Source: Nitrososphaeraceae archaeon
Lineage (GTDB): Archaea > Thermoproteota > Nitrososphaeria > Nitrososphaerales > Nitrososphaeraceae
Direction of reading: 5' to 3'
Assembly (NCBI GenBank): GCA_009377575.1
Contig: WHTU01000016.1
Span: 1-58,413 of the forward strand
DNA: 58,413 nucleotides
Made by a program: the position numbers and the translations under genes. Below, one piece after another: positions 6,281 to 35,870 of this stretch. The number at the start of each line of letters is the position of its first letter. The first letter of the stretch is position 1. A model generated the notes under the pieces. It was not told where the DNA came from. It did no database searches and saw only the letters and a list, made by a program, of their open reading frames with translations.

Positions 6281-6676
6281 TTACACTTGTTTCGAACCGC
6301 ATGCTTTACAGAATTTCGAATTTATATTTAGAGTAGCACCACAGTTAATACAATTTTTTCCCACTTCAACTTGTCTAACGTGGGGTTGCTTCTCTTCTAC
6401 TATTCCTGCTGTCTCTCTCCCGTACATCTCAGTTACAGCTCCAGAGGGTCTAAAAGTGTCATCAATATCCGGTTCCGTAATCTGACTTGATGGATCAGAC
6501 TTCTTCTCTTGGAGAAAGAGGGTCAATCTAGGCACAGGTTCTTGACTATCCGGTGAGGTAACTTGTTCCCCTAGCCAAAGTGCAAATTTCTTTAGAGTCA
6601 TCTCGGGAGTGGAAAAAGTTAACGAGTGAGTTGACATGTATTCCTCAGTAGCCGCTCGGCCATTGAATAGCTTCAT
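6281..6676 (-). CDS. protein with C-terminal zinc ribbon
   Basis: The 131-residue protein ends in a double-CxxC zinc ribbon (NCINCGATLNINSKFCKACG, about 108-127). The first 40 residues may be helical and the middle is charged and low in complexity, probably a linker. A second gene of the same build stands at 10261-10680 with a very similar ribbon (NCYSCGAEI then FCRSCG), so the two are probably paralogues now separated by the integrated element. The ribbon type is widespread in archaeal regulators and membrane-associated proteins. Function is unknown. Confidence 0.7.
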   Translation of the reverse strand: MKLFNGRAATEEYMSTHSLTFSTPEMTLKKFALWLGEQVTSPDSQEPVPRLTLFLQEKKSDPSSQITEPDIDDTFRPSGAVTEMYGRETAGIVEEKQPHVRQVEVGKNCINCGATLNINSKFCKACGSKQV

Positions 6677-7383: not shown

Positions 7384-7658
7384 AATATTCCATTTGTACT
7401 TGGTGAGATTGTTCGATGTTTGATTAAATACTCCTATGCAGTATCGAAGCTTGAAGCGATATTCTATCAAACTACAAAACTAAGTTTGACTCATTTATAT
7501 TATAATCGAAACAACCTAGTCACTCTGTCAGAGACGTGTGTCATATTTTGCCAATCTGGTAGAATGCCCTTCACTCCATTATGTCTTGTTCAAAATAGGG
7601 ACAGTGCTACCCTTTGGACTGATTTCATAGCGGGTGGTCATTCGAACCGAAGAGTAAT

Positions 7659-7681
7659 ATGGAGGGGATGGGATTCGAACC
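7659..7681 (-). repeat. distal attachment site (displaced tRNA-Val 3' end)
   Basis: Identical over 23 bases to 10011-10033, covering the tRNA T-loop, 3' half of the T-stem, acceptor 3' strand and discriminator base. The sequence beyond does not pair into a T-stem, so this is not a tRNA gene. Confidence 0.85.
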
Positions 7682-7829
7682 TTGGAGCACTAGTCAAGGA
7701 TAGTCCCGGCTATGATTTTCGATTTAGGTCCAAATGCTAAAAGCGTACATCGTTTGTGCGGGTTCGGTGGGATTTGGTTGAAAATTCATTTGTGTCCAAT
7801 CCGTGGACCCATACAGCTTGACGACTCGT

Positions 7830-8143
7830 TTATTCATACTTGGTGAGGCCGGATTTTTTCTTACTAATTTTTAATTTCCGCGCGTACATCTGTATTTTAT
7901 GTATTGATGTCTGTAAACTACGGAAGGAGATATCTGCGTATCCGAAAAAAATCTTCCAAATTTACCCATCCCGCATTTCTAGGGATCTGATGGAATTCTA
8001 AAAATCGACAAGACTGGTTTCTGAATAAGGCACAAACACTTTAAAAAATGAGATCCTAAGAAATGATGTAGTCGCATTTTGTCCAACTAAAATCTTAATT
8101 CTTGTGCGTACATCTGTATTTTATGTATAGATGTCTCTAAAAT
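7830..8143 (-). repeat. diverged direct repeat inside the element
   Basis: About 36 bases at 7882-7917 recur at 8106-8141 with few mismatches; the core GCGTACATCTGTATTTTATG is identical. On the minus strand both copies can be read in the same frame as TSIHKIQMYA followed by a basic tail, so this is probably a duplicated C-terminal coding segment and not an iteron. The first copy belongs to an open frame ending at 7830 with no start. Confidence 0.55.
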
Positions 8144-8284
8144 ATGAAAATCGTGTAAGATCTTGGCCTCATACATTGTAGCAGATAGTTGTGCAAGTCT
8201 AATTATGGATTTTTCGCGCGCAAAGAAATGATCAAAAGTTCTCACAGTCTCTTGATTTAATGTCTCTCTTATTGCGCCAAGCAA
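8087..8284 (-). CDS. short ORF within the integrated element
   Basis: This 65-residue frame is predicted mostly helical (LNQETVRTFDHFF, RLAQLSATMYEAK). Its last 15 residues fall in the repeated segment. It has no recognised family. Being inside the decayed element, it may be the surviving 3' part of a larger element gene and not a functional protein. Confidence 0.3.
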   Translation of the reverse strand: MLGAIRETLNQETVRTFDHFFAREKSIIRLAQLSATMYEAKILHDFHILETSIHKIQMYAQELRF

Positions 8285-8446
8285 TTAGAACTGGATGTCG
8301 TGAAGGAAAATGGAAAACGAGAGATTTTTAAAGGTAATTGAAAAAGAAACATTAATTGAAGACGAGTATTGTCCCATCACGATCCAGTTGTCTCGTTAGT
8401 ACTCTAACCTTTTTACGTCGGAGGACATGTTTGCAGGAAGATCGAA

Positions 8447-9060
8447 CTAATAAATTATTGGACTAATAATTACATGGACGGCAAATTCTTCAGAATTGTT
8501 TACTTCTAAGTCACGAAGACCTTGCGGATTAACCAGTCTTGCGTCAGGATCGTAGATAAAACAGAATAAGTCCTTACATACAGGAACTTGTTTGTAATGC
8601 CCTATATCTATTCTCCTATTTCTTTGTCCCCCCGGTTGCTTCTGGTCATTTTACTTTCAACGACTATCTTTTCATCCTTCACAACGAAATCCATTCTCTT
8701 TGAAGAACCTGCAAAACTAGAAGTCCACCCTTCGCGCACAATTAGAAAATCGAATTCTTCAGAGTGCAATTAACAAATATTGGACGTCATATTCATCTTG
8801 CATTTTTAGTGGTTCTTTCCCACGGTCCCTACTTTCAAGAGTTTTCACAATAGAATGGAATCTTGAAAGTAATGATTCTACCCACGATTGGGCACTATCC
8901 GTTCTCGAAAGTTCATCCTTCCTCAACGTCTTGGTCAATTCTTTGACCCGGGGAAATTTTGATCCACAACTGTCACAGTACGATGGAGGATGAATCCCTA
9001 TCGACTGAAAATATGGTTTGTACTTGTCTCCAGGTACATTATATTGACAATTCTGACATT
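8447..9060 (-). pseudogene. broken zinc-ribbon plus PD-(D/E)XK nuclease
   Basis: The minus strand encodes one protein spread over three frames. First comes a segment with ECQNCQYNVPG and YCDSCGSKFP (two zinc knuckles) and a helical part, ending in DEYDVQYLLIAL and a stop. Shifting frame gives EGWTSSFAGSSKRMDF and then VVKDEKIVVESK, the D...ExK core of a PD-(D/E)XK nuclease, ending at a stop near DKEIGE. A third frame continues HYKQVPVCKDLFCFIYDPD to a stop at 8447-8449. The order zinc knuckles, helical region, nuclease core, then CFIYDPD resembles REase_AHJR-like restriction-type nucleases. Two frameshifts make it inactive. It was probably an element-borne restriction or defence nuclease. Confidence 0.72.
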
Positions 9061-9063
9061 CAG

Positions 9064-9864
9064 TTATAGTTGAATTCCAGCACTATAAAACACACCAGAA
9101 GTGGCGTATGCGTCCTTCACGACTTTATTTAAACCTCCTAAACCCAGAGCTTGGTTCCTGTAGTTTGTGGCCTCAGACACCCATAACGGGAAAATATCCT
9201 GTGCCTTCAATGGATGCATTTCTAACCACCGTTCTAGATACTTTACAAATGACACTATTCTAACTCTTCTTTCTTCCGTCTTCCCACGCAAAATAAAGAC
9301 GGCACCTTTGGAATCAATACTAATGTCAGTATTTTGCAGGTTCAAAAATTCTTCTGGCCTCGCGCCGCTCTCATACATGCATGCGATAATGGCTTTTCTC
9401 TGGATAGACGATGTGGAAATTATTAACTTTTTAATCTCCTCTTCTAAAAATTCGCCCAAATCCAATGTGAAAGAGTCACGATACTTGTCCTTTGAAACCT
9501 TAATCGAGTACCAATTCACCTGTTCTGGATAGAATTTATTATTGCCGTAGACGACTTTGTAGAATAACCTTAGAATTATCTTGTATTTCTCTATCGTTGA
9601 GGGTTTGTAGTGTTTTTGTTTGAAAGTGTATCGGTTTTCAATGAAATCGATGAGGACACGAATATCGTCTTTGTCCGAATCTCTGAAAGAATTGCGCATA
9701 AATTTCCTCATCGAGATCAATGCAGTTATGCAACGAGTAATCCAGAGTATCGCGTCCTCGTTGTCGGTCATGTATTCTACTAATCTCAACACATAGGTCC
9801 TGTTAGATTGATCAAGTTCTGTATCAATCCTTTCGATCCAGTCCGATAGTTTCTTATTCCGATT
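9064..9864 (-). pseudogene. tyrosine recombinase (integrase), truncated at both ends
   Basis: The longest start-to-stop frame is 242 codons from a GTG at 9792. Integrase-like sequence continues upstream to a TAG at 9865-9867 (KKLSDWIERIDTEL, SNRTYVLRLVEYM) with no usable start codon. The catalytic half shows the first Arg box (ESGARPEEFLNLQ) and the beta-strand Lys (ILRGKTEERR). The protein then ends after LNKVVKDAYATSG, before the HxxR box and the catalytic tyrosine. It therefore cannot catalyse recombination. Its place next to the tRNA attachment site shows that it was the element's own integrase. Confidence 0.8.
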
Positions 9865-10010
9865 CTAGATGTCTCTCATGCGATTCCTTGACTCTAAATT
9901 AGGGACTACAGTGCCGGGTCTCTAATAATATCTTCGCTCCTTGGCGTGGATGACCTTCTTCGCGTTCTATTTGAGTTCTCCTTTCGTTGGGGATTCTAAC
10001 CGAGGTTATA

Positions 10011-10033
10011 ATGGAGGGGATGGGATTCGAACC
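10011..10033 (-). repeat. proximal attachment site within tRNA-Val
   Basis: The second copy of the 23-bp repeat. It forms the 3' end of the intact tRNA-Val gene. Confidence 0.85.
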
Positions 10034-10086
10034 CATGACCACCTGCGTGTAAGGCAGGTATCCTAACCAGTCTAGACAACCCCTCC
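10012..10086 (-). tRNA. tRNA-Val (anticodon UAC)
   Basis: A 75-base cloverleaf: acceptor GGAGGGG pairs with CCCCTCC, discriminator A. The anticodon stem CCTGC/GCAGG holds loop CTTACAC, giving anticodon UAC. The T-arm is ATGGG-TTCGAAT-CCCAT. No intron and no encoded CCA. Its 3' end served as the integration site of the adjacent element, and the gene was rebuilt intact. Confidence 0.95.
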
Positions 10087-10260: not shown

Positions 10261-10680
10261 ATGTCGGAAGGTTCTTCTAAAGGCAATTTAGCCGAACTAG
10301 GAGAGCAGCTGAAGCAGGTGTTAGAGGGTGTGCAGGATAAGTATGAATCATTCATCGATGATGCGCAGCTTTACAAGAAAGGAAAGATTGATGATGTTAA
10401 TTTTTTTTACAAATTAAGCGATTACCTACTCGATCTCACCAAAGTAAATTTCTTGGAAGTACGGTTTGTCCTAGAGCTAAAGAGTATACTGGAGAATAGA
10501 GGGGGTAAGGGGCAAGTAGAACCACCTCAGTTGAATGTTTCAAACAAAGTCAGCGTCCCGAGTATACCTAGCGGAGGCAAACATGTAGGCACGCCCAAAC
10601 GGAACTGCTACTCCTGCGGTGCAGAGATTAACTCTAAGGCCAAATTTTGCAGATCATGTGGAAAATCGCAAGAATCATGA
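10261..10680 (+). CDS. helical protein with C-terminal zinc ribbon
   Basis: The first 85 of the 139 residues look helical (LAELGEQLKQVLEGVQDKYE, then FFYKLSDYLLDLTKV). A short linker leads to a zinc ribbon, NCYSCGAEINSKAKFCRSCG, at about 116-135. Start ATG at 10261 follows the purine-rich GGAGTATACTATA. Domain build and ribbon resemble the 131-residue protein at 6281-6676, so the pair are probably paralogues flanking the mobile element. Function is unknown; such ribbons often mediate protein or nucleic-acid contacts. Confidence 0.75.
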   Translation: MSEGSSKGNLAELGEQLKQVLEGVQDKYESFIDDAQLYKKGKIDDVNFFYKLSDYLLDLTKVNFLEVRFVLELKSILENRGGKGQVEPPQLNVSNKVSVPSIPSGGKHVGTPKRNCYSCGAEINSKAKFCRSCGKSQES

Positions 10681-35714: not shown

Positions 35715-35818
35715 GCCGGGGTCGCCTAGCCTGGTAGGGCGCAAGCCTGGAAATTGCAAAATATCCAGTCAGCTTGTGATCTCTTGGGGTCACGAGGGTT
35801 CGAATCCCTCTCCCGGCG
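35715..35818 (+). tRNA. tRNA-Ser (anticodon GGA) with intron
   Basis: Acceptor GCCGGGG/TCCCGGC (one G-U pair), discriminator G. The anticodon stem CAAGC/GCTTG has loop C-T-GGA-A then, after the intron, A. A long variable arm (GTGATC/GGTCAC around TCTTGG) identifies the serine class. T-arm GAGGG-TTCGAAT-CCCTC. The 18-base intron (35753-35770) is at the canonical place after position 37; its TCCAG pairs with CTGGA of the anticodon loop to form the central helix of a bulge-helix-bulge motif. Confidence 0.95.
35753..35770 (+). other. canonical tRNA intron
   Basis: 18-base intron at position 37/38 of tRNA-Ser(GGA), to be removed by the archaeal splicing endonuclease. Confidence 0.8.
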
Positions 35819-35870
35819 CTCATCTGATGACGAGAAATCCTAAATGGTGACAATTGTACCAAACTACACT

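Follow-up and report, generated by a model that had tools for sequence, protein, structure and literature searches.

Next to its tRNA-Val gene, a soil archaeon of the ammonia-oxidising type (Nitrososphaeraceae) carries a decayed small mobile element, and at the far side of that element lies a second, orphan copy of the tRNA tail. The locus raises the question of what this orphan tail records, the other end of the element beside it or an earlier integration at the same tRNA. The window analysed here is a stretch of 58,413 nucleotides, contig C77 of the source genome (G000; 3.89 Mb in 380 contigs). We consider it probable that positions 7659–10033 hold the remnant of a small cryptic element inserted by a non-splitting type II tyrosine integrase at tRNA-Val, and that this tRNA was used more than once.

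An Exact Repeat of the tRNA-Val 3′ End Encloses a Broken Integrase and a Broken Nuclease

The tRNA-Val gene (anticodon TAC; 10012–10086, minus strand; ARAGORN and RF00005), the putative integration target with its 3′ end restored, ends in the 23-mer ATGGAGGGGATGGGATTCGAACC. This sequence occurs exactly twice in the 58-kb window, both times on the minus strand, as the core at the tRNA (10011–10033, from the T-loop to one base past the discriminator base) and as the orphan tail that forms the distal core (7659–7681). No further site was found in the window with 3 mismatches allowed, shuffled sequence gave 0, and the two copies extended to 32 nt are 88% identical. Between them, an integrase fragment, immediately 3′ of tRNA-Val, and nuclease fragments are encoded on the minus strand. 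The locus thus has the direct repeat of a tRNA 3′ end at both ends (23 of 23 bp) and the tyrosine integrase gene beside a restored tRNA that characterise a tRNA-targeting element, and in these points it bears out the initial annotation, which had described a perfect repeat around two broken genes. The element also contains a 60-nt direct repeat (7866–7925 and 8090–8149; 82% identical in a repeat comparison), with related sequence in the remnant of genome G003. One small protein is encoded on either side of the locus (6281–6676, minus strand; 10261–10680, plus strand), with C-terminal zinc-ribbon-like motifs below the Pfam cut-offs. Taken in itself, 7659–10033 is a decayed cryptic tRNA-integrated element, an ordinary and already known kind of thing.

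The integrase pseudogene (9064–9942, minus strand) matches Pfam Phage_integrase (PF00589; 7.3e-6). It has a frame shift at its N terminus and an in-frame stop, TAG, inside the conserved MRD-(L/I)-Y-NR motif (MRDLYNR), and it lacks the entire catalytic C-terminal part (LRHSRATH...RRYIHL) seen in intact relatives. From the active-site series R..K..HxxR..Y, complete in the intact relatives, the R and K region is kept and HxxR and Y are deleted; the remnant is dead and not an active element. Homology to the integrase breaks off at roughly 9097, and the nuclease begins at roughly 9064; as each gene is missing the end that faces the other, a single deletion could explain both losses. Point mutations, frame shifts and this deletion, which would have joined the first part of the integrase gene to the nuclease, would together have inactivated the element.

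Searches of named collections with the integrase found relatives in MAGs of Nitrososphaeraceae and Nitrososphaerales. Phage records contain only distant archaeal virus integrases (23–32% identity), and no related elements were found among viral contigs. A Prim-Pol replication protein (L126) or, by a weak match, a DUF5906 protein (L090) accompanies intact relatives, which suggests that this integrase family travels on integrated plasmid-like elements.

Read through its frame shifts and five in-frame stops, the nuclease pseudogene (8450–9064, minus strand) combines an N-terminal, DUF2321-like zinc ribbon with a DpnII-MboI REase domain (PF18742; 9.2e-35 and 119.8 bits against a cut-off of 27 for the read-through of about 8450–9064), in agreement with the zinc-ribbon PD-(D/E)XK-type cargo first proposed. 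Its closest relatives, DpnII-MboI and DUF2321-like proteins of enterobacterial plasmids, share about 38% identity over the full length and the same order of zinc ribbon and REase, matching the whole read-through, whereas the window gene is broken and other elements of this archaeal family are without such a gene. Indeed, across 300 genomes of the order no homologous element was seen to carry the nuclease, and a search for elements carrying the same integrase and nuclease returned none, so the idea that the remnant documents an element type with nuclease cargo finds no support there. The sole other nuclease match in these 300 genomes (G067, 41% identity) has no integrase or tRNA nearby. This G067 gene (L258:870-1652, G067:C45) encodes an intact nuclease of the DpnII-MboI type and is divergently oriented to a 964-aa reading frame that we ourselves read as a large SNF2-like helicase, and the two may form a defence pair. 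In PADLOC, the window nuclease is matched solely by the REase part of Argonaute-associated proteins, and a defence role for it is possible.

A T-Arm-like Arm Lies at a Fixed Distance behind Integrase-Linked tRNAs

A profile of the integrase was run against 400 genomes of the order, and 96 loci were examined. In 66 of the 96 a tRNA on the same strand lies within 310 nt upstream of the integrase gene, with no other feature in between; this is the polarity of the window element and, as initially proposed, that of tRNA-targeting elements. These 66 loci carry 29 anticodon labels (ARAGORN), some perhaps mislabelled owing to introns. When the T-arm 12-mer of each tRNA was compared with the DNA downstream of it, the mean number of matches was highest, at 7.2 of 12, when the two lay 32 bp apart; most other spacings gave about 2–3. 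Of the 42 loci that reached 8 or more of 12 matches, 35 had a spacing of 32, versus 2 of 35 integrase-less control tRNAs, most of them taken from a single genome. An arm resembles its own tRNA a little more closely than it does other tRNAs (7.07 versus 6.61 matches; 0 of 20000 permutations, with similar loci thinned), a preference that may reflect shared ancestry.

In homologues, the arm is a 19-nt sequence around CCTCGGTTCGAATCCC directly after the tRNA 3′ end. The integrase-side arm of the window, AACCTCGGTTAGAATCCCC (9989–10007, minus strand), is T-arm-like, lies 32 bp from the tRNA T-loop and has the best position weight matrix (PWM) score in the window, 28.8. With at most 1 mismatch, CTCGGTTNGAATCCC occurs at two sites only in the whole G000 genome, one following tRNA-Val and the other following tRNA-Ala(CGC) of contig C222, and no arm was found behind the other, integrase-less tRNAs examined in that genome. 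The tRNA-Ala(CGC) is followed, near the contig end, by a second decayed integrase start with the same arm (L272/L295; G000:C222:151732-153107). Elsewhere in the window, an intron-containing tRNA-Ser(GGA) at 35715–35819, missed by an intron-less ARAGORN run, has no integrase-side arm behind it. In another genus, a tRNA-Val is followed by an arm and a decayed homologous integrase (L124:9025-9477, G014:C18), which indicates that tRNA-Val is targeted in at least two genera. A further tRNA-Val is followed by an arm-like motif with no recognisable integrase (L137:7919-7945, G072:C97), possibly an older fossil.

The Orphan Tail Probably Marks an Older Element

An arm, CTCTTCGGTTCGAATGACC (7636–7654, minus strand), also follows the orphan tail on its chromosomal side. 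Scored with a matrix built without that site and ranked over the 58-kb window, it reaches 18.9, second only to the true arm, against a background of about 3e-6 per position. It lies at the expected offset, and a decayed counterpart is found at the same boundary in G001, a genome of the same genus (L081:3803-3821). The less decayed two-ended elements have no such arm on the chromosome side of their distal copies; these elements are found at tRNA-Ser (L244, 13.2 kb), tRNA-Phe (L246, 19.3 kb), tRNA-Glu (L256, 12.0 kb; L128, 4.2 kb) and tRNA-Thr (L127, 4.7 kb). Since the distal ends of relatives are without the arm, it belongs to the integrase side of an element. The orphan tail would then most likely be what is left of the integrase-side end of an older element that used tRNA-Val. 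The complete attachment footprint of one element, as the initial annotation had it, does not fit an orphan tail with an integrase-side arm outside the repeat, unlike the true distal ends of relatives.

The orphan tail could also be the ordinary distal attachment site of a single insertion, with the motif outside it a product of chance or native chromosome. That would be the simplest reading of the 23-bp repeat, and it is helped by the arm lying one base farther from the core than usual and by the older integrase body not being recognisable: beyond the 7636–7654 arm nothing rises above chance, and the evidence for the older element consists of the arm of about 19 bp and the core. However, the rank and position of the motif, its rarity in the background, its absence from the distal ends of relatives and its counterpart in G001 all speak against a single insertion, which we regard as unlikely.

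We favour instead a succession of two elements. The older one would have come first, its core and integrase-side arm surviving as the orphan tail and little else, and the newer one would sit between that tail and tRNA-Val. The integrase would have recombined the tRNA-tail core of the element with the 3′ end of tRNA-Val, and this insertion would have restored the tRNA and placed the integrase gene directly behind it. A parallel to the window is found behind one tRNA-Glu (L128, G080:C97), where two distal ends have identical 40-nt approach sequences. About 1 kb between these two distal att copies (G080:C97:2656-3690) contains a pair of small reading frames but lacks an integrase, and is possibly an integrase-less tandem unit.

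Copies at the tRNA-Val Locus Appear to Have Turned Over

The tRNA-Val locus is occupied in G000, G001, G002 and G003, and the contigs of G002, G003 and G004 break there. A decayed integrase start is present at this tRNA-Val in three further genomes of the genus (G001, G002 and G003). G001 has the same neighbours, tRNA-Val and then the start of a homologous integrase, with different cargo; G002 retains 137 bp of the element start; the G003 contig, after the same flank, holds a shortened element and stops in the tRNA core; and the G004 contig breaks before the tRNA. Integrase-less tRNA-Val genes of other genera sit at different loci, and neither an intact element at tRNA-Val nor a clean empty site was found in the genus.

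G000 and G003 are the closest pair, with protein identities of 97.6% for GT4 and 95.9% for GatE, a fourfold-site divergence of 8.5–10.5%, and flanking intergenic DNA that is 92% identical (8% divergence). Their elements are only 74% identical in the integrase, 77% in the distal part and 65% in the arm-proximal part (divergence 23–35%). An element divergence of 23–35% against about 9% at fourfold sites argues that the two copies did not separate with their hosts. The copies appear to have been replaced or sorted rather than simply inherited, by separate acquisition or by differential keeping of tandem copies. A tree of the short tRNA-Val remnants is poorly supported (54–62), and this argument for turnover therefore rests on the distances.

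Vertical descent of one ancient element within the genus, its high divergence coming only from fast neutral decay, would account for the presence of the same integrase start in all tRNA-adjacent remnants of the genus and for the comparison of G000 with G001, where divergence in the element (about 27%) is close to that at fourfold sites of GT4 and GatE (about 32%). It is contradicted for G003, where the element is far more diverged than both the fourfold sites and the adjacent intergenic DNA, and we hold it to be improbable. A chance repeat or local duplication of the tRNA tail with no tie to the integrase is very improbable, because only the shortness of the repeat speaks for chance, whereas shuffling expects zero copies and the interval holds an integrase with tRNA-linked homologues.

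A Palindromic attP and the Possible Role of the Arms

The attP of two-ended cryptic archaeal elements was rebuilt by joining the distal end, the core and the integrase side. In L128 and L256 the rebuilt site forms a palindrome whose dyad falls 7.5 nt ahead of the tRNA end, with 24 and 19 of 30 positions complementary, respectively (0 of 500 shuffles); L246 is palindromic too (18 of 30, reached in 0.4% of shuffles). No palindromy was found in attB, attL or attR. Judged from sequence, the attP of relatives with both ends therefore appears to be an imperfect palindrome. At the predicted mirror position, complementarity out of 15 is 13 in L128 (two copies), 12 in L256, 11 in L246, 9 in L244 and 9 in L248, one further distal end, against about 4 by chance. 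At the window's own distal end a left inverted arm is not recognisable (5 of 15), which would be consistent with decay and does not support the model.

A symmetric attP of arm, core and arm would explain both the arm and its likeness to the T-arm, the integrase presumably binding T-arm and arm alike. Direct mimicry of the T-arm, as the sole reading of the arm, is weakened by the inverted left arms at distal ends. We lean, by a small measure, towards a single attP design in this order-wide thaumarchaeal integrase family, with a tRNA-tail core, two inverted T-arm-like arms and a dyad at the junction of T-stem and acceptor. The integrase-side arm would persist downstream of the tRNA, three helical turns (32 bp) away from the T-arm, and would have two roles, as an integrase binding site serving many tRNAs and as a lasting trace of earlier integrations, for example the one outside the orphan tail. 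If this is true, one integrase protein family could use many different tRNAs via the arm, and the arm gives a testable model for how a single family serves nearly 30 anticodon labels. The value of the remnant lies in leading to this simple mark at a fixed distance behind a tRNA, which would separate integrase-side from distal ends and date repeated integrations at one tRNA.

Comparison with Known Elements

Thaumarchaeal cryptic integrated elements (CIE), as described in PMC6563490, integrate at tRNA 3′ ends, have att repeats mostly below 26 bp (median 17 bp), start at sizes of 2.6 kb and carry diverse cargo. The window element resembles them in its tyrosine integrase, its target, its short att repeats and its small size, and differs from those covered there in its decay, in the probable successive integrations at one tRNA and in a nuclease cargo unseen in the related elements here. 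The same source reports element arrays at one site in thaumarchaea, other archaea and bacteria. Like such arrays, and like the "tandem accretion" of bacterial ICE and IME, the locus would have one attachment site re-used and several ends behind one tRNA; unlike them, it presents fossil ends only, from which mobilisation cannot be shown. The point added to this known kind is the orphan tail as a probable record of an older integration, and the regularity of the arm is the more interesting outcome. According to PMC8371274, archaeal att sites need bases beyond the identity block. In the text consulted of this paper and of PMC6563490, and in the openly accessible literature searched, we found no earlier account of a T-arm-like arm at a fixed distance or of an attP with palindromic symmetry.

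The SSV-type (suicidal, type I) archaeal integrases, as presented in PMC8371274, share the tRNA target, and their open reading frame can extend into the tRNA gene. The window family differs from them in not belonging to Phage_integr_3 (PF16795) and in having its gene whole beside the tRNA in intact relatives. An SSV-type assignment was rejected, since the window and its intact relatives give PF00589-type matches only and PF16795 appears only for a second integrase in L127. Splitting of the integrase by integration was likewise rejected, since in relatives such as L125 the catalytic part lies undivided beside the tRNA, and in L128 this part is unbroken up to the HxxR and Y motifs. L127 was also set aside as a clean intact relative, its 45-bp distal repeat lying in a reading frame that leads into the second, SSV-type integrase. 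In this locus (L127:1171-2467, G078:C44), the reading frame that overlaps the SSV-type integrase (PF16795) upstream spans the 45-bp orphan tRNA-Thr tail, which indicates that two integrase types share one tRNA.
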